From the NCBI GenBank assembly GCA_027729805.1, contig JAQCEO010000009.1, forward strand, positions 1 through 47,474: a stretch of DNA of 47,474 nucleotides, read 5' to 3'. Positions 6,360 through 47,474 of the stretch are shown in pieces (position 1 is the first letter of the stretch; the number at the start of each line of letters is the position of its first letter). The notes beneath the pieces are model-generated. The model was not told the DNA's origin and did not search any database. It saw nothing but the letters and a program-made list of their open reading frames with translations. Made by a program: the position numbers and the translations under genes. Source of the stretch: Actinomycetota bacterium (lineage in GTDB: Bacteria; Actinomycetota; Actinomycetes; S36-B12).

Positions 6360-6825
6360 TTCGTCGTTGCCAAGCGCCAGGTTTGGCTAGGAGCCCGGTT
6401 ACTTCGGCGGGCAGTTCGTTGGCGGCCACGTCGGCCAAGGTGATGTTCTCCAAGACATGGCGCATCGAGGCGCGAACAGCAATCCAGACTTCGCGTAGGT
6501 GTTCGGCGGCGCCTTGATAATTAACATCTTCGGGGCGTTGTCCGCGAACGGCGGCGAGGGGTCCGTCAAGTGCCCGGACGATATCGGCGATAGTGACTTC
6601 GGAGGGACTGCGATCTAGGCGATAGCCACCCTCGGCCCCGCGCTGGCTGGTGACAATTGCGGACTGACGCAATTGGCGCAAGATGCCTTCGAGGAATTTC
6701 AGCGGTATGCCTTGCGCGACCGCGATGGTCTCGCCTTTTACCAAGCGGTTGGGATCTTCGGCGTAGGCCACGGCGAGCACCAATAGGGCGCGCATCCCAT
6801 AGTCAGCCTTGGCTGAAATATGCAT
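6352..6825 (-). CDS. Rrf2-family transcriptional regulator
   Basis: This is a 157-residue winged-helix regulator. It starts MHISAKADYGMRALLVLA, the classic Rrf2 N-terminus, followed by a recognition-helix region with IPLKFLEGILRQLRQ and the wing SQRGAEGGYRL. An upstream ATG at 6936 would add 37 residues that do not look like the family, so the ATG at 6825 is chosen. The protein has no cysteine, so it cannot bind an iron-sulfur cluster the way IscR, NsrR or RsrR do; its signal must be different. It is divergent from the thioredoxin-TPR gene, with 62 bases between them, so it may control itself and that gene. It converges with meaB, with an 8-base overlap. Confidence 0.88.
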   Translation of the reverse strand: MHISAKADYGMRALLVLAVAYAEDPNRLVKGETIAVAQGIPLKFLEGILRQLRQSAIVTSQRGAEGGYRLDRSPSEVTIADIVRALDGPLAAVRGQRPEDVNYQGAAEHLREVWIAVRASMRHVLENITLADVAANELPAEVTGLLAKPGAWQRRTN

Positions 6826-6887
6826 CCGCTCAGTGTCCTCGCCGGGTATTGGATTAGGTGGGGGACCCCATAGTAGAAGATAGGGGC

Positions 6888-7835
6888 GTGACTTCAACTC
6901 CATTTTCTGGCCGCGGGGCAGTTGACCTGGGGGCACTTGCGACGGCGCGACAAAATCAGCAAAAAGCCGCAGCCGCGGTTGCAGGAGCCCCGGCCGGGGT
7001 GGTGATCAACGTCACCGAAGCGACTTTCCAAGCCGAGGTCATTGAACGATCATTGACGGTGCCCGTAGTACTTGACCTCTGGGCCGAATGGTGCGGCCCC
7101 TGCAAACAGTTATCGCCGGTCTTGGAGAAGTTGGCGGCCGAGGATGCCGGTCGGTGGATACTCGCCAAAGTAGACGTGGATGCCGAGAAGCGGGTTGCCG
7201 CAGCTTTCCAGGTGCAGTCCATCCCGGCGGTTTTTGCCGTCCTGAAAGGCCAGCCGGTGCCACTGTTCCAAGGTGCCTATCCGGAACCGCAAATCCGTCA
7301 GATTATAAATGAGTTGCTGAAAGTAGCCGCGGAGCAAGGAGTCACCGGAACTTTGGCTGACGACGTGGGTCCGCCGCCCGAGTTGGCGGAAGAGGCTTCG
7401 GCCCCGACCGAGCCGGCAACTGATCCCCGTTTTGACGCGGCATTTGATGCGATCGAAGCCGGTGACTGGGCTGCGGCTGAAGCGGCTTATCGATTAATTC
7501 TGGACGCCGACACCGCCGACCGTGATGCGCAGGCCGGGCTAGCGATGGTGGGCCTTTATCGGCGCACCGAAGGTGAGGACGAGGGGGCCTTGCGGGCCAT
7601 TGCCGAACAGGCCGATGCTAAAGGTGATGTGCGGGTGCAATGTGCTGCGGCGGACTTTGATGCGCTGTCCGGGCACTGGCCGGACGCCTTCGACCGACTT
7701 ATTGCCTGTGTGCGGGCCACGGCGGGCCCGGATCGGGAGTTGGTGCGGGCACGGTTACTTGAGTTGTTCATCCTTGCGGGCGAAGACCCTGCGGTTCCCA
7801 GTGCGCGCACGGCATTGGCCAACGCCTTGTTCTAG
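6888..7835 (+). CDS. Thioredoxin-TPR co-chaperone (YbbN/CnoX-like)
   Basis: The protein has about 315 residues. After an actinobacterial-style leader (FSGRGAVDLGALA) comes a thioredoxin fold with AEWCGPCKQ, so both redox Cys (69 and 72) are kept. The cis-Pro region IPAVFAV follows, then a C-terminal TPR-like helical part with AxxxFDAAFDAIEAGDW and repeated Ala-rich helices. YbbN/CnoX proteins guard chaperone clients and can pass them to GroEL/DnaK after oxidative stress. Unlike E. coli CnoX, this one retains a CGPC active site and may be a real oxidoreductase. The GTG at 6888 is preferred because it gives the usual N-terminus; GTG at 6858 is possible. It is divergent from the Rrf2 gene. Confidence 0.88.
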   Translation: MTSTPFSGRGAVDLGALATARQNQQKAAAAVAGAPAGVVINVTEATFQAEVIERSLTVPVVLDLWAEWCGPCKQLSPVLEKLAAEDAGRWILAKVDVDAEKRVAAAFQVQSIPAVFAVLKGQPVPLFQGAYPEPQIRQIINELLKVAAEQGVTGTLADDVGPPPELAEEASAPTEPATDPRFDAAFDAIEAGDWAAAEAAYRLILDADTADRDAQAGLAMVGLYRRTEGEDEGALRAIAEQADAKGDVRVQCAAADFDALSGHWPDAFDRLIACVRATAGPDRELVRARLLELFILAGEDPAVPSARTALANALF

Positions 7836-7933
7836 TCCCACCACGGCCACCGCAGCCATTCCAACCGATCCTCATTGGACCCAAGTTGCAGGCCCGCCCG
7901 GATCTTGATTGACCGATCAGTAGGCTCGACTGC

Positions 7934-8713
7934 ATGGGTGAATACGTATCTTTGGAGTTGGCCGGCGAGGTTGCAAGCATTGTGTTGTCGCGCCCGCCGA
8001 TGAACGCTCTTTCGCGTCAGGTGCAGGAGGAATTACGCGCAGCGGCAGGTGAGGTAAGTGCGCGGCGCGATATCGGTGCGGTAGTGGTCTACGGAGGCCC
8101 CAAAGTCTTCGCGGCTGGGGCTGATATAAGAGAGATGGCCGAAATGGACTACCAGGAGATGGCCCTGCAGTCGCGTGATCTCCAGTCCGCGTTCACCGCT
8201 ATCGCCAATATCCCGGTGCCAACGATCGCTGCCGTAACCGGTTACGCCTTAGGTGGTGGTTGTGAGTTAGCGCTTTGCTGTGACCTGCGTGTAGCTGGCG
8301 ACAACGCGAAATTTGGTCAACCCGAAGTGTTATTGGGCATCATCCCTGGTGCCGGGGGCACCCAGCGGCTTTCACGTTTGATTGGGCCGGCACGAGCAAA
8401 AGACTTAATTTTCAGTGGCCGTTTCGTGGGGGCTGAGGAAGCCATGCGCATTGGCCTCGTCGACAAAGTGGTCGCACCCGATGATGTCTATACCGAGGCG
8501 ATCGCCTGGGCTGAGCAATTCGCCGCCGGTTCGAGTACCGCCTTGCGTGCAGCCAAGCGCGCCATCAACTTCGGGCTCGAAGTAGATCTCAATACCGGCC
8601 TGGAAATCGAGCGCGGGGAGTTCACCGGGCTGTTTGCGACCGACGACCGAATTATCGGTATGACATCGTTTATGGAGAACGGTCCGGGTAAGGCCAAGTT
8701 CACCGGCCGGTGA
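7934..8713 (+). CDS. Enoyl-CoA hydratase/isomerase family protein
   Basis: This 259-residue crotonase-fold enzyme likely hydrates 2-enoyl-CoA (for example crotonyl-CoA) to 3-hydroxyacyl-CoA. The oxyanion-hole block FAAGADIREM is present, as is GYALGGGCELAL with the first catalytic Glu. PEVLLGIIPGAGGTQRL carries the second Glu, which points to a genuine hydratase rather than an isomerase alone. The C-terminus FMENGPGKAKFTGR is typical of short-chain hydratases. With thiolase and Ccr nearby it fits crotonyl-CoA supply or use. Its TGA stop is the first codon of a 25-bp tandem repeat. Confidence 0.92.
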   Translation: MGEYVSLELAGEVASIVLSRPPMNALSRQVQEELRAAAGEVSARRDIGAVVVYGGPKVFAAGADIREMAEMDYQEMALQSRDLQSAFTAIANIPVPTIAAVTGYALGGGCELALCCDLRVAGDNAKFGQPEVLLGIIPGAGGTQRLSRLIGPARAKDLIFSGRFVGAEEAMRIGLVDKVVAPDDVYTEAIAWAEQFAAGSSTALRAAKRAINFGLEVDLNTGLEIERGEFTGLFATDDRIIGMTSFMENGPGKAKFTGR

Positions 8714-34020: not shown

Positions 34021-34474
34021 AACTCCTGGGTTAGTGGGCCGGTAACCGAGCTAGGTAAATTGTATCCAATATCCGTGATTGGATCCAATCATAGGGCACG
34101 GCTGCCGGATACGGTTTTGGAGGCAGGCGGGGCGAAGAATCAGATGGTGATTTCGAAACTAGGACACCGCCGAAATCTCCCCGACCTCCTGGGTGGCATT
34201 GGCACTAGGCACTTTCGTGGCAGTTACGATTATTGACGCCCCGAGTGATCGTTTCTGAACCTATTCTTGGTTGCCGCTGCATGTCCTCGCCGCGCCACTT
34301 GTACTACACCTAATCCTTGAAGTGTCCAGCACGCACGCCCACTAGGGCACAGTGTCAACCAAGGTGATAGCACTTGCTTCGGAGAGATCGCGTCTGAGGA
34401 CTTTATGATAAACACGCGTTGAATATCGATCGTTGGCTGGTATCTTTAAAATCCCAATTCGCAGGAGGAATGCA
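34021..34474. other. Intergenic boundary region between gcdH operon and accessory region
   Basis: About 450 bases without a supportable gene. The left end carries the two GntR-like palindromes. GATTTCG (34149-34155) pairs with CGAAATC (34171-34177) as a hairpin. TATGAT at 34404-34409 may be a -10 element for the YCII gene, with no convincing -35. The sequence looks more AT-rich and less codon-like than what lies to the left. No tRNA or attachment-site repeat was seen. Confidence 0.55.
34059..34089. promoter_or_regulatory. Paired palindromic operators for the GntR regulator
   Basis: ATTGTATCCAAT (34059-34070) and the perfect palindrome ATTGGATCCAAT (34078-34089) differ by one base and have centres 19 bp apart, so two dimers would bind nearly the same DNA face. 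They lie 40-70 bases before gcdH. FCD-type GntR proteins typically bind such short AT-flanked palindromes, so autoregulation of gcdH-CoA transferase-gntR is likely. Confidence 0.7.
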
Positions 34475-34795
34475 ATGACTAGGTACGTGCTAATTTACTC
34501 GGGCCCGCAGACCTCTGAGTCCCGCGAGGAGCAGGACGCGATCATCGCCGACTGGGAGGCCTGGTACTCGAAGATGGGTGATGCCATCGCCGAAGGAGGC
34601 GACCCTCTCGGTGCTTCGAAACACATTTCCGCTGTCGGCGCGCCAGTTGCCGACGGAGACGGTGGCTTGCCTGCGTCGGGGTACACGGTCATCGAAGCTG
34701 ATTCGCTCGACGACGCTGCTGCCGCCTGTGCTGACCACCCACACCTGGCCCACGGCGGTCAGGTCCATATCTTCGAGGCCATCGACCTCCATTGA
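34475..34795 (+). CDS. YCII-related domain protein
   Basis: This 106-residue protein starts TRYVLIYSGPQTSESREEQDAI and ends HPHLAHGGQVHIFEAIDL, the pattern of the YCII/DGPF family (ferredoxin-like fold, with a His-Asp pair proposed for catalysis). Some members are chlorophenol or sigma-factor related; no role can be given here. The ATG at 34475 follows AGGAGG closely. It is the first gene of the accessory stretch and ends a few bases before the broken dehydrogenase. Confidence 0.8.
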   Translation: MTRYVLIYSGPQTSESREEQDAIIADWEAWYSKMGDAIAEGGDPLGASKHISAVGAPVADGDGGLPASGYTVIEADSLDDAAAACADHPHLAHGGQVHIFEAIDLH

Positions 34796-34799
34796 TTCC

Positions 34800-35396
34800 G
34801 GTTGGGGGATTTTGTACATAATCGACGGCTGGGAACGCGTCCTGTCTAAAGATTCAGATATTCGAAGTGCTGTTGTGGCCGTTGGGCTGATCGCATCAAT
34901 CGGTGCTCGAGTGGTTGCCGTGGATCGCAGTGCACGCAGGCTTGATGTGGTCCTTACCCTTGGCGCCTCTGCCGTTGTGAGCACGGACAATTGTGAGGAT
35001 GAAGTCGACTTGCAAGAGGCTCGTCTCTGAGCCACTGGGGCTCCCGGATTCGACATAACCATCGAGTGCTCCGGAGCTCCGATTCTTCAGGCAATAACGT
35101 TGAGCGTTGCCGCCCAGCGAGGTCGCGTTCTCTTCCTCGGCCTAGCGCACTCACCTGCGACGAACGTGTCCTTGTACAACATTCAACGACGTGAGTTGCT
35201 CATACGAGCGTCCACTGCTGCCGAAGAATTGGCGTGGCGAGCAGCCATCCGCCTGCTTGTAGAAACCGGTCTTGACCTCACCCCAGTCATTTCTGACGTA
35301 GTTGCTTTCAGTGATAGCCGCACTGCAATTGAGGCGGCATCCGATCCAGCGCATCACTCCAAAGCCCTTCTTCAACCGAATGAAGTCCCCAGCTAG
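34800..35396 (+). pseudogene. Broken MDR (alcohol dehydrogenase-like) gene
   Basis: One frame reads through this region, interrupted by a single TGA at 35028-35030. Before it, VVAVGLIASIGARVVAVDRSARRL and LGASAVVST look like the nucleotide-binding half of a medium-chain dehydrogenase. After it, GAPGFDITIECSGAP, RGRVLFLGLAH and a normal C-terminus (AIEAASDPAHHSKALL) continue. The N-terminal catalytic-domain half is missing. The glycine loop expected before VVAVGL (normally GxGPxG) has become KDSDIR. So the gene is truncated, loop-degraded and stopped; readthrough would not restore function. Confidence 0.82.
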
Positions 35397-35695
35397 GCCA
35401 GAACTATGTGGACTTCAAACCTTGTCCAGAGTTTGCCGGATAATCACGTGTGACCGCGACACGTCGCACACCAGACCTGCTGACATACCCAAAGAAGGCT
35501 GGCGCGTGAATTGGTAAACGGGAATCTGGGCCCGCACCAGGAAATGTCAATTTCAGACGGTGCTTGAACAGCGCAAATAATCCACCGCTTCCATCCTGCT
35601 CAGCCAAAGGTTTTTGCACAGTCGGTGGCACGAGATGCGGTGGTCAGGCTAACATACGCATGTAGTTAATTGCACGATCCTCTGGAGAGGAAATA

Positions 35696-36553
35696 ATGAC
35701 AGCAAATCCGTTAAGCCCGCCACTATTCGACGATCAGGGCAAGTCTGTAATGGCACGAATCAGTCCCGAAGACGTAGGTCGTTATGTCATTCTTTCGGTG
35801 CACGATCCACTAGGCTATGAGAAAGATGTCGCCGAGGTCATAGGCAGCTATATGACTGATGCTCGCCTAATTGCAGATACGCACATGTTCGTGACCTATA
35901 CCGGTACTTACCATGATGTCCCGATAACGGTCTGCTCGACGGGAAGCGGTGCCCCCGAGACAGAGATCGCGCTGGTGGAGTTTTTCAGATTTTCCCAGGC
36001 TGACACTTTCATTCGCGCTGGGACGTCAGGAACGTACCTCGAGGAAATCGATGTGGGAGATCTCGTTATCGCCTCTGGAGCCGTTCGCGACGAGGGTACC
36101 TCCGCAGCGTATGTAGTCCCGACGTATCCGGCCATCGCGAACCATGAGGTTATGCTCGCGTTGGCGGAGGCCGCTGAGGCTTTGGGTATTAGATACCACG
36201 TTGGAATTACGCGCTCTACCGACTCCTGCCAAGCGGGCCAAGGGCGACCGGTGCTGGACTATCTGCAAGAGGACAGCGCCCGGATCCCCGAGTACTGGCG
36301 CAAAGTTGGTATCAAGAACTTTGAGCGCGAAACTTCGATAATTTATGTCCTATGCAGCTTGTTTGGGTTCCGGGCCGGTGCAATTAACGCAGTTGTAAAC
36401 AGCACGCCGAAGGGGAATCTAGAAGTGGGGGCGGGTTCGGACGCCGTCTTCCGCACAGTCTTAGAGGGGATACGGACCTTAGCCGCTTGGGACGCAATCA
36501 AGGAGCGCACGGGCCGCTCATTTCTATTACCATCGATGCTGAACGAGACATGA
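35696..36553 (+). CDS. Nucleoside phosphorylase (PNP/UDP family)
   Basis: This 285-residue protein should split a nucleoside-type N-glycoside with phosphate into base and sugar-1-phosphate. YTGTYHDVPITVCSTGSGAPETEIAL, IRAGTSGTYLEEIDVGDLVIASGAVRDEG and YVVPTYPAIAN are uridine-phosphorylase-like. The late NFERETSIIYVLCSLFGFRAGAI replaces the usual EMES-type ribose-binding block with ERET, so substrate choice may be unusual. GGAGAGGAAATA precedes the ATG. The next gene starts inside its last codons, giving a tight operon with SDR and Gfo/Idh enzymes. The 299 bases upstream hold no gene I can support. Confidence 0.85.
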   Translation: MTANPLSPPLFDDQGKSVMARISPEDVGRYVILSVHDPLGYEKDVAEVIGSYMTDARLIADTHMFVTYTGTYHDVPITVCSTGSGAPETEIALVEFFRFSQADTFIRAGTSGTYLEEIDVGDLVIASGAVRDEGTSAAYVVPTYPAIANHEVMLALAEAAEALGIRYHVGITRSTDSCQAGQGRPVLDYLQEDSARIPEYWRKVGIKNFERETSIIYVLCSLFGFRAGAINAVVNSTPKGNLEVGAGSDAVFRTVLEGIRTLAAWDAIKERTGRSFLLPSMLNET

Positions 36554-37311
36554 GAATCACACCTTTCGACTTGAGTGGTCGGGTTGCAATCGTCACAGGA
36601 GCTGGAAGTGGCATAGGTCAGGCTGTCGCTTGTGGGCTGGCCAATGCAGGTGCTGACGTGGCACTTACCTACCGCACGGATGCCAATCAGACCGCATCCC
36701 AGATTCAAGCCATAGGCAGAACCGCTCGTACGTATGCCTGCGATTTTTCTGTTGCGGGCGCCTCCGAGTTTTCGCAATTGGTGAAAGAGGTACTCCGTGA
36801 ATTTGGCCGGATAGACATCCTGGTTAACAACGCGGGTAGCATTACTGTGGCGCCAGCCTTGGATCTGAGCCAAGTAGAGTGGCAGGCAGAACTACAAGTA
36901 AACCTAACTAGCGCCTTCTTGATGAGTCAAGCCGTGGCGCACGGCTTCGGAGGTGCCCCGGGAGTCATCATCAACATTGGGTCGGTGCTGTCCTTTCAGG
37001 GCTCAAGTAGCGTGGTCGCCTACACGGCAGCAAAGAGTGGGCTTGCGGGTATGACTAGAGCTCTGGCGGTCGAATGGGCAGCGTTGGGTATCCGAGTGAA
37101 CGCGGTGGCACCTGGATATGTCAGAACTGCGATGGTAAGGCGCCTTGAGGAGGACGACAATCTTCGGGCGCCGATTGATGCGCGGATACCTATTGGGCGC
37201 TGGGCCGAACCAGCGGACATCGCGGCCCCTGTCACTTTTCTTGCCAGTGATGCGGCTGCGTACGTGACAGGCGTAGTACTCCCGGTTGACGGTGGCTGGC
37301 TTGCTGGGTAA
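36550..37311 (+). CDS. Short-chain dehydrogenase/reductase
   Basis: This 253-residue classical SDR has GAGSGIGQAVACGLA (NAD(P) loop), NNAG, IGSVLSFQG (catalytic Ser) and the YTAAK pair (Tyr and Lys). VNAVAPGYVRTAMVRRL and YVTGVVLPVDGGWLAG are the usual C-terminal blocks. The ATG overlaps the nucleoside phosphorylase stop as ATGA; its own end overlaps the next gene by 26 bases. It is probably a sugar or polyol dehydrogenase in the same pathway. Acidic or basic coenzyme-specificity residues were not resolved. Confidence 0.9.
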   Translation: MRITPFDLSGRVAIVTGAGSGIGQAVACGLANAGADVALTYRTDANQTASQIQAIGRTARTYACDFSVAGASEFSQLVKEVLREFGRIDILVNNAGSITVAPALDLSQVEWQAELQVNLTSAFLMSQAVAHGFGGAPGVIINIGSVLSFQGSSSVVAYTAAKSGLAGMTRALAVEWAALGIRVNAVAPGYVRTAMVRRLEEDDNLRAPIDARIPIGRWAEPADIAAPVTFLASDAAAYVTGVVLPVDGGWLAG

Positions 37312-38401
37312 GGACGCCCGCGTCGGCGTCGGTATAGTTGGTCTCGGCGATATCAGCTCGACCTACATAAGAAACTTGACAACGCGTTTCAATGAGGACA
37401 TTCACGTTGTCGGTGGAACGGACGTGGATGCTCATCGTGTGGATGTGGCGCTGAAGAAGTTCGACTTGTTTGGCTACCGGGACCTCTTCGAGATGTTAGC
37501 TGACCCTCGGGTCGAGATGGTCTTAAACCTGACCAACCCTTTGTCGCATGCAGCGGTCAGTGAGGCCGCTGTAGCTGCCGGAAAGCATGTGTATTCAGAG
37601 AAGCCATTAACCGTCGACTATGAGGATGCGTGCAGACTCCTTGAGCAAGCACAGAAAGCCGGGGTGCTGGTCGGTTGTGCGCCGGACACGTTCCTTGGCG
37701 ATGGTTTGCAGACCTGCCGTCGAACGATAGATGCCGGGGAGATCGGGGATCCGATTGCCGCTACGGCATTCATGGTCTGCCACGGTCACGAAAGCTGGCA
37801 CCCATCGCCCGCGTTCTTCTACCGACGAGGGGCTGGCCCGATGATGGATATGGGTCCCTACTACCTGACGGCTCTGGTGAGCCTGATGGGTCCGATCAGG
37901 CGAGTGACGGGGTTTGAGCAAAAAACTTTCCCGACCCGCACAATCACCAGTCAGCCCCTAGTGGGAGATACGATCGATGTAGAGATACCCACGCATGTCT
38001 CCGCAATACTTGAGTTTGTGCGAGGAGCAATTGCAACCGTAGTGATGTCCTTCGATGTGTGGGCGGCGCAGGTCCCGCATTTAGAGATCTACGGAACCGC
38101 TGGGTCTCTCAGCTTGCCAGACCCGAACACATTCGGTGGACCGGTGTCGGTGCAACTAGCGAATGCGAGAGCGTGGCGCCCTATAGATGTAATTGGCTCA
38201 GCGCAGGATGACAGTCGCGGATTGGGCATTGCTGACTTGGCTCTTGCAGTTCGCTCCGGCGCTACTCCGCGAGCCTCGGGAGAGCTTGCATGCCACGTGT
38301 TGGAGGCCATGCACGGTATTCATGCATCGTCGATGAACGGCAGAGTTTATGTTATGCAGACCAGGTGCCTCTTGCCGCCTCCTGCGCGGGACATGACGTG
38401 A
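37286..38401 (+). CDS. Gfo/Idh/MocA-family oxidoreductase
   Basis: This 371-residue NAD-dependent sugar/inositol-type dehydrogenase has GVGIVGLGDISSTYIRNL (Rossmann loop), VLNLTNPLSHAAVSEAAVAAGKHVYSEKPLTVD with the conserved EKP catalytic Lys, and MMDMGPYYLTALVSLMGP. The start is probably the TTG at 37286, overlapping the SDR gene by 26 bases; a GTG six bases later is possible. With the phosphorylase and SDR it likely oxidises a sugar, cyclitol or nucleoside fragment. It is not certain that this protein relates to the MocD/MocE pair further right. Confidence 0.88.
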   Translation: MTVAGLLGKDARVGVGIVGLGDISSTYIRNLTTRFNEDIHVVGGTDVDAHRVDVALKKFDLFGYRDLFEMLADPRVEMVLNLTNPLSHAAVSEAAVAAGKHVYSEKPLTVDYEDACRLLEQAQKAGVLVGCAPDTFLGDGLQTCRRTIDAGEIGDPIAATAFMVCHGHESWHPSPAFFYRRGAGPMMDMGPYYLTALVSLMGPIRRVTGFEQKTFPTRTITSQPLVGDTIDVEIPTHVSAILEFVRGAIATVVMSFDVWAAQVPHLEIYGTAGSLSLPDPNTFGGPVSVQLANARAWRPIDVIGSAQDDSRGLGIADLALAVRSGATPRASGELACHVLEAMHGIHASSMNGRVYVMQTRCLLPPPARDMT

Positions 38402-38763
38402 TTCAGAGGTATCCAAAAGCGGAGACAGTATGTGAATGAGGGCGTAAGAAGTAATGAAGGTCATCAGTGCCAGCGGCCATCATCAGCATTGCCAAGCCTA
38501 GATTTGATCCTTGGATCGGACCAGCTAGAGCTGTTTTTCACTTCGATTTCTCCGAACCCTAAGTCCGCTGCAATGCCTGGCAAGCCCCTTCCGGCTTACT
38601 AAACAGGAGTCCAAACTCAGCTGGAAGCTTTGTGTCCTTCACATCGTGCGGTCGCGCAGGATCTACCTTTGGCTAAGTAGAGATCAGAATTGGCATGAGC
38701 CTTTCTTCAACTTTTGCTTTGGCTATTCTATGCCAGAGTCCTGTGATCACCTTTAGGAGCGCA
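38402..38763. other. Gap before the P450 gene
   Basis: About 360 bases with no recognised gene. One short open frame from a GTG at 38432 to 38602 (56 codons) has no motif I know and is probably chance. TTTAGGAG at 38753-38760 is the P450 ribosome site. No clear promoter or terminator was found. Confidence 0.5.
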
Positions 38764-39954
38764 ATGGATGAGACGAGCCCAGTACTGCCCTTCGATCCGC
38801 ATTCTGCGCAGATGATTGCCGATCCTTACCCAACCTACGATGCTCTGCGTTTAGCCGGGGCTGTGCACCACTCTCCGGAGTTGAATCTCTGGGTACTCGC
38901 ACGTCACAGTGATGTACGCGCAGCGCTGCACAACTGGCAAGTTTTTTCGAGCACAAGCGGTGTGGAGCTAGGTGAACCCCTTTTTGGCACCGGTGATCCG
39001 ATCGTCAATGACCCTCCGCAGCACAGCGTGTTGCGTGATTTGGTCGGTAGACACTTCCATAGTCGCGTCGTCGAGAACCTGCGTCCTGTCGTTCGGTCGA
39101 GGTGCGAGCAACTCCTAGATTCGATCTCGGATCGCTCTGATATTGACTTCGTTGGACAATACGCCGGTCGAATTCCTGGTACGACCATGTGCTCTATGCT
39201 TAGTTTCCCGTCTGATGATGAATCGTGGATTACCGCCAAGGTAAATGAAATGATGAATCGCTCGCTGGAAGCATCCGATCTGTTTCGTGCTGAGGCTGCC
39301 AAGGCCGCTCTTTGGTATTACGTTGAGGAGCAGATCTCTCTCGGCACGCGACCTGCTAATGGCCGGAACGTAACACCGCTCCTCTCGCAAATCTGTAAGG
39401 CACGAACTGACGGCCTCATATTGACTGACGACGCGGTAGGGCTGTGCCTGAGCCTTCTCACTGCGGGGACGGAGACAACGACCGCACTGATTACTACTAT
39501 TTTGTGGAGACTGGTGCGAGGAGACATCACTATGCCAGACTTAATTCCAGATGGTGACGTCATCGCCGGTCGTGCAATCGATGAGGTCTTACGCTTCGAC
39601 AGCCCTATCCAGTGGCTCACTAGAACAACGACTCAGGAAGTGGATGTCTCTGGGGAGGTGGTACCCGCAGGATCGCGAGTAGTGCTCCTCTTTGCATCAG
39701 CGAATCGAGACTCCAAGGCTTTCCAGAACCCAGACGTAATCAACGTCTATCGTGATCAGTCCAGGAGTTTATCGTTTGGCGGCGGGATTCACTTCTGCCT
39801 CGGTCGGCTTCTCGCTCGCGTTGAGACCAAGGAAGCCCTTGGGGTCTTTGTTAGGCGATATCAGGTTCCACAATTGTCTGATACGCCGGTTCGGTATCCG
39901 TCTTCATGGCTCCGCAGTTTCTCCTCGCTGCCCATAAAAATTGAGGCCCGATAA
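38764..39954 (+). CDS. Cytochrome P450
   Basis: This 396-residue soluble bacterial P450 has the I-helix oxygen-activation block LTAGTETTTALI, the K-helix ExxR in EVLRFDSPIQWLTR and the heme loop FGGGIHFCLGRLLAR with the proximal Cys. VNDPPQHSVLRDLVGRHF is the usual C-helix region. The ATG at 38764 follows TTTAGGAG; an upstream ATG at 38695 would add residues unlike the family. No ferredoxin or reductase is adjacent, so electrons must come from elsewhere, unless the Rieske protein at 45972 serves it. The substrate is unknown; the neighbours suggest a catabolic role. Confidence 0.93.
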   Translation: MDETSPVLPFDPHSAQMIADPYPTYDALRLAGAVHHSPELNLWVLARHSDVRAALHNWQVFSSTSGVELGEPLFGTGDPIVNDPPQHSVLRDLVGRHFHSRVVENLRPVVRSRCEQLLDSISDRSDIDFVGQYAGRIPGTTMCSMLSFPSDDESWITAKVNEMMNRSLEASDLFRAEAAKAALWYYVEEQISLGTRPANGRNVTPLLSQICKARTDGLILTDDAVGLCLSLLTAGTETTTALITTILWRLVRGDITMPDLIPDGDVIAGRAIDEVLRFDSPIQWLTRTTTQEVDVSGEVVPAGSRVVLLFASANRDSKAFQNPDVINVYRDQSRSLSFGGGIHFCLGRLLARVETKEALGVFVRRYQVPQLSDTPVRYPSSWLRSFSSLPIKIEAR

Positions 39955-44201: not shown

Positions 44202-44322
44202 ACCCCTTTAAATTGCGAAATCCGTAAGTATTTGCCCATAGGGCTGCCGAAACCGGTGGTGGGGCGATACGCTTGTGGGGCCTTGGCATTTCCTTATCTC
44301 GCCTTCGACAATTGGAGTTCAC

Positions 44323-45771
44323 GTGAGCGGCAATCTGGTTCTGCGTAATTTCGTAAATGGTAAAAGTGTCGATGCAGCCGATGGCCGCACCAGCGACCTG
44401 ATCAACCCCTCGACCGGCGAAATCTTTGCGTCGGCTCCAGTGTCGAGCGCGACCGATGTGGATCGCGCTTATGTCGCGGCCGATGCGGCATTTGAGAGCT
44501 GGAGCAATTCGACCCCGTCGGAAAGGCAAAAGGCATTACTGACTATTGCCGATGCTTTTGAAGCCCACGCTGATGAACTGGTGGCCCTCGAAAGTGAGAA
44601 CACCGGTAAGCCGGTGGCGCTTACCGCCTCGGAAGAAATCCCACCGATGATTGACCAGATCCGGTTCTTTGCGGGTGCGGCTCGAGTCCTCGAAGGTCGG
44701 GCGGCGGGGGAGTACGCAAAGGGCCTCACCTCGATCATTCGCCGCGAGCCAATTGGGGTAATTGGGCAGGTCACTCCGTGGAACTACCCGATGCTGATGG
44801 CGGTCTGGAAGTTTGCCCCAGCGATTGCGGCTGGCAACACCGTAGTGCTAAAGCCCAGCGACACCACTCCGGTAAGCACCGTGCGGATGGCGGAAATCAT
44901 CGCGGAATCTGATGCACTGCCCCCGGGTGTCCTGAACGTGATCTGTGGTGACCGTGATACCGGCCGCGCGCTCGTCGAGCACAAGACCCCTCAGATGGTG
45001 TCGATCACCGGCTCTGTTCGTGCTGGTATGCAAGTTGCCGAGTCGGCGGCCCGCGATTTAAAGCGCGTGCATCTCGAACTGGGCGGCAACGCGCCGGTGG
45101 TGATATTCGATGATGCGGATGTGGAGGCCGCGGCGGAGTGGTTGGCCGTCACCGGTTACTTCAATGCTGGCCAGGACTGCACCGCGGCAAGCCGGATGAT
45201 TGTTGGTCCAAGAATTTATGACGACTTCGTCGCCGCCCTGGCTGAGCAAGCCAAAGGCACACTAACTACATTTGCCGACGGCCCCGGTGGTGACGCACTA
45301 GTCCCGCCCGTAAACAACGTCAACCAGATGGAGCGGGTGCTCGGCTTCATCGAGCGCGCCCCGGGCCATGCCTCGGTGGTGACCGGCGGTAAGCGTCAAG
45401 GTGATCGCGGCTACTACATAGAGCCCACGGTTATCGCAAACCTTAAGCAAGACGATGAAATGGTCCAGAACGAGATCTTCGGACCGGTAATCACAGTGCA
45501 GAAGTTTTCCGATGAGGCTGAAGCTTTGCGTTGGGCCAATGGCGTGCCTTATGGCCTCGCCTCCTCGGTTTGGACCAAGGACTTTGGCCGCGCGATGCGG
45601 ATGGCCAAGGGTTTGAACTTTGGCTGCGTCTGGATCAACACCCATATCCCACTGGTTGCCGAGATGCCCCATGGTGGCTTCCGGCATTCAGGTTATGGCA
45701 AGGATCTATCCATGTATGGGTTCGAGGACTACACCCGCATTAAGCACGTGATGTCCAACCTCGATAGTTAA
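44323..45771 (+). CDS. Aldehyde dehydrogenase, probably aminobutyraldehyde-type
   Basis: This 482-residue NAD(P)-dependent ALDH has [33 protein letters not shown] and [18 protein letters not shown] with the general-base Glu. [14 protein letters not shown] carries the catalytic Cys, and [10 protein letters not shown] is also present. The overall blocks ([13 protein letters not shown]...[14 protein letters not shown]) resemble gamma-aminobutyraldehyde dehydrogenases. The GTG at 44323 with TTGGAG upstream gives the normal N-terminus; an ATG at 44275 is too far upstream. It would take the product of the aminotransferase or amine oxidase encoded divergently to an amino acid such as GABA. Confidence 0.92.
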
Positions 45772-45788
45772 GGCTCGCAATTCCCTGA

Positions 45789-45965
45789 TCACCAACGCGC
45801 AGCCGCCAGCCAACACCAGCGATCGCCGCCCAACCCGCAAGGCCCTTGACCCCACCCTCGCCGAGGCCGGCGACGCGCTCGACTGCTCACTGGTGAAGAT
45901 CGAGCCATGCCCGCATGCACTCCGGCAAGGCCTGTTCCGACTATGACCATGTCGGTGTTACTCAT
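45789..45965 (-). pseudogene. Stump of a ferredoxin reductase (MocF/BenC-type)
   Basis: Six bases after the Rieske gene, the minus strand opens with ATG and reads MSNTDMVIVGTGLAGVHAGMA. This is the FAD-binding GxGxxG start of a ferredoxin-NAD(P)+ reductase. After about 20 residues it turns into Arg/Pro/Gly-rich, GC-rich sequence with no family features, and it stops at 45789 (58 codons). So the gene is cut short, with unrelated DNA joined near 45905. The gene order oxygenase-ferredoxin-reductase is what a mocDEF-like operon would show, which supports the call. A chance match over so few residues is possible but unlikely. Confidence 0.6.
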
Positions 45966-45971
45966 CCGCGA

Positions 45972-46286
45972 TCATTCGATGTCGATGAGAACGCGGCCGT
46001 CTTCGACCCTGGTCGGGTAGGTGCGCAAGGCCTCAAGCACCGGGGGACCCATCGGCGCCCCGGTGCGGTAGTCGAACCGCCCGTGGTGCTTGGGGCACTC
46101 GATGATATTTCCCATGACGAGGCCGTCGCAAAGCAACTGCCTCTCGTGGGTGCAGTGCCCATCCGTCGCGAAGTACTCGTTGTCTACTGAGCGATATAGG
46201 GCGTATTTCATGCCCCCGTACTCGAAGGGAATGACGTCCTCCACATCAATGTCCTCAAGACCGCAAGCATCTATCCAGGTCGGCAT
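45972..46286 (-). CDS. Rieske [2Fe-2S] ferredoxin, MocE-like
   Basis: This 104-residue protein has the Rieske pair C-T-H in DGHCTHERQLL and C-P-K-H in ECPKHHGRFDY, 16-17 residues apart. These bind the [2Fe-2S] cluster. FDYRTGAPMGPPVLEALRTYP is the usual loop after the second ligand. Small ferredoxins like this feed electrons to oxygenases; MocE of Sinorhizobium rhizopine catabolism is the closest remembered match. It lies 40 bases downstream of the desaturase-like oxygenase on the same strand, and a reductase stump follows. Confidence 0.9.
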   Translation of the reverse strand: MPTWIDACGLEDIDVEDVIPFEYGGMKYALYRSVDNEYFATDGHCTHERQLLCDGLVMGNIIECPKHHGRFDYRTGAPMGPPVLEALRTYPTRVEDGRVLIDIE

Positions 46287-46326
46287 GGCAGTACTCCCTA
46301 GGGTTCGAACTCAAAGTGTTGGGAAT

Positions 46327-47412
46327 CTACGGCGCGGGCGTTTGGATCGGCTCGTAGAATGGCGCCGCGCCCGGTGGAAGCTCGCGACGAACGCCATAGG
46401 TCGGGTCCTTGAATTGCCGCAAGACTGCCGGAATGATTTCCTTATATGCCGCCCAGATCGACGGGTACATGGCGGGAAGGTCGTGCTTGATATCCGCGTG
46501 GAGGTCTGGCAGCTTGTGCGAAGGAACCATCGGAAACATGTGGTGCTCTACGTGGTAGTTCATGTTCCAGTAGATGAATCTGTTGACCCAGCACATCTTG
46601 ATAGTGCGGCAATTGAGACGGTGATCCAGGGCGTTCTCCTGCAGCCCCGCGTGCTGCGTAAGTGCATATATGACTTGCATGAAGGTGCCGTAGATTCGGG
46701 GCCCTCCGATGAGTAGCAAAGGCAGAATCGACCAGGTGAAAATGCTCGTTGCTATCGCTGCTGCGTAGATCAGCAGCCAAATGCGCGCGGTTCGATACAC
46801 CTTGTACTGCTCCTGCGACGGCACCACCATCGCTTCATCGCGAGTGAGCCTGCCGAATGCATGCATGAACATCAATTTAAATGACACCGGAACGTCGTAC
46901 AGTCCGGCAAAATTGACGATGATTCGAGCGAGCCGCGCGGGCCGCATAGCCTGGATCTCCGGATCCATTCCCACAATGATCGTGTCGGTGTGGTGACGGG
47001 TGTGATTCCATCGCCAAACCGTAGGCTCGCGCATCATCATGAAGGAGGCGATCTGGTAGACGACCACGTTCATCCAGCGTGTCTCGAACGGAGTGCCATG
47101 GCCCGTCTCGTGCCAACGCGAGTCCCCTCCCGACCCGTAGAGGATGCCGTAAACCAACAGGAAAACAATTGCGTACCACGCTCCCCACGTGGCGATAGCG
47201 AGCCCGGCAGACACGAGCATCACTCCGAGCCATAAGGCCGTCCAGCGGATCGCCGGCATGTCCTCACGACGCATTAACTCCTTCATCCGCTTACGTGGGA
47301 CATCGGAGTGGAACCACTCCGCGTTGGCCAGTCCGATCGCGTTGGCGCGGTCCGCCGCTGGGCTGTCTAGGGCGTACATTGCGAGTCTCTCGCGTCGCTC
47401 AGTGCGGTCCAT
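46327..47412 (-). CDS. Fatty-acid desaturase-fold oxygenase, MocD-like
   Basis: This 361-residue membrane di-iron enzyme has HETGH, HTRHH and HVEHH, the three His boxes that hold the iron. At least four hydrophobic helices surround them. It is shorter than plant-type desaturases and close in layout to MocD-type hydroxylases, which with a ferredoxin and reductase remove a methyl group or hydroxylate a small substrate. The adjacent Rieske gene supports that reading over a simple lipid desaturase, though alkane or fatty-acid hydroxylation cannot be ruled out. The start follows a purine-rich GGAATGGAGAT. A palindrome lies about 30 bases upstream. Confidence 0.87.
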   Translation of the reverse strand: MDRTERRERLAMYALDSPAADRANAIGLANAEWFHSDVPRKRMKELMRREDMPAIRWTALWLGVMLVSAGLAIATWGAWYAIVFLLVYGILYGSGGDSRWHETGHGTPFETRWMNVVVYQIASFMMMREPTVWRWNHTRHHTDTIIVGMDPEIQAMRPARLARIIVNFAGLYDVPVSFKLMFMHAFGRLTRDEAMVVPSQEQYKVYRTARIWLLIYAAAIATSIFTWSILPLLLIGGPRIYGTFMQVIYALTQHAGLQENALDHRLNCRTIKMCWVNRFIYWNMNYHVEHHMFPMVPSHKLPDLHADIKHDLPAMYPSIWAAYKEIIPAVLRQFKDPTYGVRRELPPGAAPFYEPIQTPAP

Positions 47413-47443
47413 CTGAAATCTCCATTCCGAGGATCTCGACCTG

Positions 47444-47459
47444 ATTAGACCGGTCCAAT
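47444..47459. promoter_or_regulatory. Palindromic operator upstream of MocD-like gene
   Basis: ATTAGACCGGTCCAAT pairs with itself at 7 of 8 positions around CCGG. It lies 31-47 bases before the oxygenase ATG, in the expected promoter. The AT-flanked GACC/GGTC form suits a GntR or TetR-type repressor. The regulator is not in the window. Confidence 0.5.
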
Positions 47460-47474
47460 AGTTGCTAACATACT

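Follow-up and report, generated by a model that had tools for sequence, protein, structure and literature searches.

The window analysed here, a stretch of 47,474 nt, is the entire contig C22 of an actinobacterial genome (G000; 2.03 Mb in 92 contigs, with an estimated completeness of ~96 %). Its right end carries, on the minus strand, a pair of mocD-like and mocE-like genes, the order, strands and coordinates of which were confirmed. The first (46327–47412) specifies a 361 aa membrane di-iron oxygenase of the fatty-acid-desaturase superfamily (PF00487, FA_desaturase; E-value 1.5 × 10−34) with the three histidine boxes HETGH (residue 101), HTRHH (137) and HVEHH (287), the histidines of which are invariant across 15 homologues. 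The second (45972–46286) specifies a 104 aa Rieske [2Fe–2S] ferredoxin that scored 138.3 bits against the NCBIfam model MocE_fam_FeS (TIGR02377), passing its curated cut-off of 136.15, and has the Rieske ligands (C-x-H-x16-C-x2-H, residue 45); the next NCBIfam models for this protein include the AndAb and HcaC ferredoxins. The MocDE-like module proposed in an initial annotation of this DNA was therefore confirmed. Only 62 bp (47413–47474) separate mocD from the contig end upstream of it, such that the remainder of the island described below lies outside the assembly; the terminal 23-mer of C22 had no second occurrence in the genome, nor did any other contig share this end. On the other side, convergent with mocDE, is the native flank: an aminobutyraldehyde-dehydrogenase-type gene (ALDH; 44275–45771, plus strand; NF010000, 695.5 bits against a cut-off of 615), the listed start of which is probably too far upstream. 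This gene is present in nine of ten genomes of the genus, and the mocDE pair abuts a native amine-catabolism operon.

MocD was ~55–67 % identical to MocD-like proteins encoded beside mocE, with its closest relatives (~65–69 %) found in Kineosporia sp. R_H_3 (L028) and Pseudonocardia spinosispora (L026). In the MocD tree it grouped with actinobacterial homologues and not in the clade that includes MocD of the true moc cluster, and on the basis of this position among actinobacteria a recent transfer from rhizobia was rejected. Across a sample of 394 genomes of the class, a strong mocD match was found in the window genome only. The predicted structure of MocD was a low-confidence model (mean pLDDT 67) for which no PDB match fell below an E-value of 1 × 10−3; the match to FtAlkB (E-value 0.14, probability 0.99) lends weak support to a possible AlkB-like fold.

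Immediately downstream of mocE we found the stump of a third, reductase-type gene (45906–45965, minus strand), comprising a start codon and ~20 codons with an FAD/NAD-binding motif (VIVGTGLAGVHAG). Its ATG, at 45965, is 6 bp past the mocE stop, and the stump reads MSNTDMVIVGTGLAGVHAGMA; homology ends near 45906, with the ORF continuing through unrelated sequence to a stop at 45789. The Rossmann motif is not a chance occurrence; it was the sole match in an ORF of < 100 aa when 81 stretches, amounting to 2.07 million codons in six frames, were scanned, and the reversed window gave 0 matches. The best Pfam match of the stump was FAD_binding_2 (E-value 0.15), the stump being too short to allow a family call, and against the MocF profile it scored 5.6 bits over 18 residues, again too short to decide. 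Furthermore, it has GLAG where the rhizobial and Streptomyces MocF proteins have GECG, and as such represents a reductase-type start that is not demonstrably MocF. Judged by these residues, the lost third gene appears to have been of the ferredoxin-reductase type; the chopped reductase, which the initial annotation had described as breaking off near 45905, is present. No complete mocDEF operon exists here, as mocE is followed by no intact reductase gene, only by the ~20-codon stump. The 134 bp of GC-rich (69 %) DNA between the stump and ALDH (45772–45905) had no Pfam match in three reading frames and no convincing DNA match in the fetched loci. We rejected the idea that this DNA is what remains of the reductase tail, since it matched neither the MocF profile nor Pfam.

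The comparison of relatives across this junction, which the initial annotation had suggested, was provided by genome G005 (71 % complete), from another species of the genus, which has a mocDE pair beside the corresponding ALDH gene, on a contig (C31) that ends inside mocD. In G005 the mocE stop and ALDH lie nearly back to back, with 183 bp missing relative to the window, including the stump and most of the GC-rich DNA. This deletion is clean, has left no reductase trace and lies between TGATC direct repeats, the two copies of which bound the segment in the window at 45787–45791 (minus strand) and at 45970–45974, where the repeat overlaps the stop codon of mocE. To the left of the junction, four native genes shared 74–81 % nucleotide identity between G000 and G005 (ALDH, 81 %), whereas mocE shared 95.5 %; at four-fold sites, 374 of 650 differed in the native genes vs 8 of 65 in mocE plus the mocD tail (Fisher test, P = 6 × 10−13). 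Because of this step in divergence, the junction is a genuine boundary of horizontal exchange, as the initial annotation had proposed in calling it a recombination edge, and the distribution now seen for the island arose after the two species had diverged. The same step led us to reject vertical descent, in both species, from a single ancient insertion. An assembly chimera was likewise rejected, as G005 has the matching neighbours at identities (81 and 95.5 %, as above) diverged enough to preclude a shared assembly error. In seven other genomes of the genus with the ALDH 3′ end, different DNA adjoins it and mocDE is absent; in most of these the adjoining gene is one that we take, by eye, to encode an LLM-class flavin oxidoreductase. 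Moreover, genome G002, the ALDH gene of which is more similar to that of G000 than the G005 gene is, does not have mocDE. In the search for the remainder of the island, viral contigs gave no relative.

With regard to the broken reductase, the initial annotation had offered two consequences, loss of function or the use of another reductase. Between G000 and G005, mocE showed 3 replacements vs 11 silent codon changes (dN 0.012, dS 0.18–0.21, dN/dS about 0.06–0.07). The gene is under purifying selection, as measured over 104 codons in two genomes, and part of this signal may have arisen before the reductase was lost. This selection, together with the recurrence of reductase-less mocDE in other actinobacteria, makes loss of function the less likely consequence, and favours that half of the proposal in which another reductase is used. 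We consider it unlikely that the pair is a decaying remnant, put out of action when its reductase was lost, in which mocD and mocE have simply not yet had the time to degrade. The destruction of the reductase in both genomes and the recent sharing of the island (mocE dS 0.18) would suit such decay, as would the 30 C-terminal mocD codons available in G005, four of which had changed in amino acid with 0 four-fold-site changes. The excess of silent changes in mocE, however, argues against it, as do the metal-ligand motifs kept in both mocD and mocE and the reductase-less pairs seen elsewhere.

Such pairs are in fact the rule among the four other actinobacterial loci, three of which have no adjacent reductase and instead carry other genes downstream (Pseudonocardia L026, Kineosporia L028 and L004 of the same-family genome G021); the order D–E–F was found in Streptomyces (L027) and in nearly all rhizobial loci. 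It is therefore plausible that MocDE of the window would use a reductase encoded elsewhere. A Pyr_redox_2 search of the genome returned a single reductase with a clear resemblance to MocF, encoded on contig C69 (252.8 bits against a MocF profile; next best 100.9) in a cluster of aromatic-catabolic appearance; it was not found in G005, a genome that is 71 % complete. The nearest NCBIfam models for this protein are HcaD and AndAa, and because the partner ferredoxins of these are the next-nearest models to the window MocE, we regard the C69 reductase as a reasonable donor and, putatively, the best candidate. That a reductase and other partners are instead encoded upstream of mocD, in the part of the island past the contig end, is rather improbable. 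This side is indeed unseen, with the window contig ending 62 bp before mocD and that of G005 inside it; however, where a reductase is adjacent in the fetched relatives it is downstream of mocE, the stump places the lost reductase downstream here also, and the sole clearly MocF-like reductase of a ~96 % complete genome lies in its own cluster on C69. A more tentative extension of supply in trans, which we consider possible but would not favour, is that actinobacterial MocDE constitutes a distinct, mobile, two-component form of MocDEF, now free of a reductase of its own and served by a housekeeping or aromatic-pathway one, which would allow the pair to spread from genome to genome as a small catabolic cassette for methylated plant cyclitols.

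The reading that we consider probable is that mocD and mocE, shared horizontally, encode an O-demethylase (or hydroxylase) pair that acts on a methylated compound resembling a cyclitol or sugar, with its reductase supplied in trans. The two genes would be the retained core of a three-component oxygenase, within an accessory island that was exchanged horizontally among species of the genus and that ends just past the stop codon of the native ALDH gene. MocE would pass electrons to MocD, which would in turn act as the hydroxylase on a small methylated substrate of the cyclitol or sugar type, the probable target being an O-methyl (or N-methyl) group, with the methyl released as formaldehyde. The neighbouring reductase was lost through deletion, and the electrons would come from one encoded elsewhere, that on C69 being the best candidate. 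We infer this chemistry and substrate class in large part from neighbouring genes at other loci. In a true moc cluster, recognised by a score of 756.5 bits against the MocR equivalog model, mocDEF is followed by PanB-like and PurU folate genes, and one or both of these lie downstream of mocDEF in many other loci; Kineosporia has a PanB-like gene downstream of mocDE, and inositol-type neighbours occur in Kineosporia, Pseudonocardia and Nitratireductor. Taken together, these neighbours fit an oxidative demethylation of a methylated cyclitol or sugar, in which the methyl group is released as formaldehyde. No PanB-like or PurU gene is visible beside the window pair on the assembled side. The PanB-like gene that follows rhizobial mocDEF (L029–L105, L106, L107, L147 and L149), sometimes with PurU as well, scored well below the PanB cut-off, which suggests that it may have a dedicated one-carbon role and not one in pantothenate synthesis.

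The initial annotation had also linked the module to rhizopine, and this link was not supported. The mocDEF genes are described, in the passages of PMC5132102 and PMC10107442 that cite Bahar et al. (1998), as the ferredoxin oxygenase complex of rhizopine catabolism in Sinorhizobium meliloti L5-30 and Rhizobium leguminosarum. The locus resembles these in its order of di-iron oxygenase, MocE-family Rieske ferredoxin and reductase start, and its MocD and MocE are each ~57 % identical to those of the moc cluster L147; in contrast to rhizobial mocDEF, its reductase is destroyed, its MocD belongs to the actinobacterial clade, outside that of the true moc-cluster proteins, and no mocR, mocB, mocA or mocC lies beside mocDE on the assembled side. 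Across the genome, the one Peripla_BP_4 binding protein and those Gfo/Idh/MocA-type genes that were examined showed < 30 % identity to MocB and MocA, respectively, and none of these distant homologues adjoins mocDE. Furthermore, mocDEF is common outside moc clusters, where most rhizobial MocDEF sets are located: Pseudomonas syringae has it without mocCABR (PMC5132102), and in rhizobia it is found next to fixV/TIM-barrel genes (PMC3538637). As such, and despite the mocDE order, the MocE-family membership and the IolE-like and Gfo/Idh/MocA genes beside mocDE in Kineosporia and Pseudonocardia, we consider it very unlikely that the locus is a true catabolic module for rhizopine (3-O-methyl-scyllo-inosamine) in an actinobacterium. 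Least probable of all is that the first gene encodes an ordinary lipid desaturase in an incidental arrangement, an outcome that the initial annotation had named as fatal to its proposal and for which the FA_desaturase assignment speaks. Against it, the sole curated NCBIfam desaturase model matched by MocD scored 35.1 bits with a cut-off of 500, and the 55–67 % homologues of MocD adjoin mocE, mostly with an FAD-dependent oxidoreductase.

Amongst known systems, the favoured O-demethylase pair is like the LacI/TIM-barrel-associated mocDEF of rhizobia, which is accompanied by PanB-like or PurU, as in Rhizobium etli p42e (cf. PMC3538637, beside fixV homologues), in that MocDE lies outside a moc cluster, and unlike it in that neither a reductase nor a LacI regulator, TIM-barrel or folate gene is visible nearby; the rhizobial MocDE of this type presumably acts on an inositol derivative, and the window pair likewise. 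With the Kineosporia and Pseudonocardia pairs it shares the lack of an adjacent reductase and the closest MocD relationship, whereas those pairs reside in inositol-type clusters (IolE-like, Gfo/Idh/MocA and sugar ABC transporter genes) and that of the window abuts an amine-catabolism operon. The Hca and AndA aromatic dioxygenase systems have a ferredoxin and a reductase that are similar to MocE and the C69 reductase, respectively; the terminal oxygenase of the window, unlike theirs, is a membrane di-iron protein and not a Rieske oxygenase. What makes the locus informative is the jump in divergence across the junction, along with the recurring lack of the reductase among actinobacteria. These findings indicate that mocDE-like genes should not be read as a rhizopine marker and that an accessory island carries the pair from one species to another; they also point to a dedicated reductase that seems dispensable in actinobacteria, with the window offering a concrete case for an oxygenase–ferredoxin pair fed by a borrowed reductase.

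A number of minor observations were also made. Within the window, ~1.7 kb between long genes (34021–35695) contains no clear long ORF, and genes for an SDR dehydrogenase, a Gfo/Idh/MocA-family oxidoreductase and a cytochrome P450 lie consecutively at 36487–39954, the Gfo/Idh protein being 22 % identical to the moc-cluster MocA. In S. meliloti RCAM1115 (L147, CP050559.1), the moc-cluster mocD (~6730–7990) aligns as two overlapping pieces and is unannotated, and is thus probably frameshifted in this strain. Additionally, in Rhizobium leucaenae (L033 and L044) a single genome has two mocDE copies and mocF accompanies only one of them; it is possible that one reductase serves both pairs.
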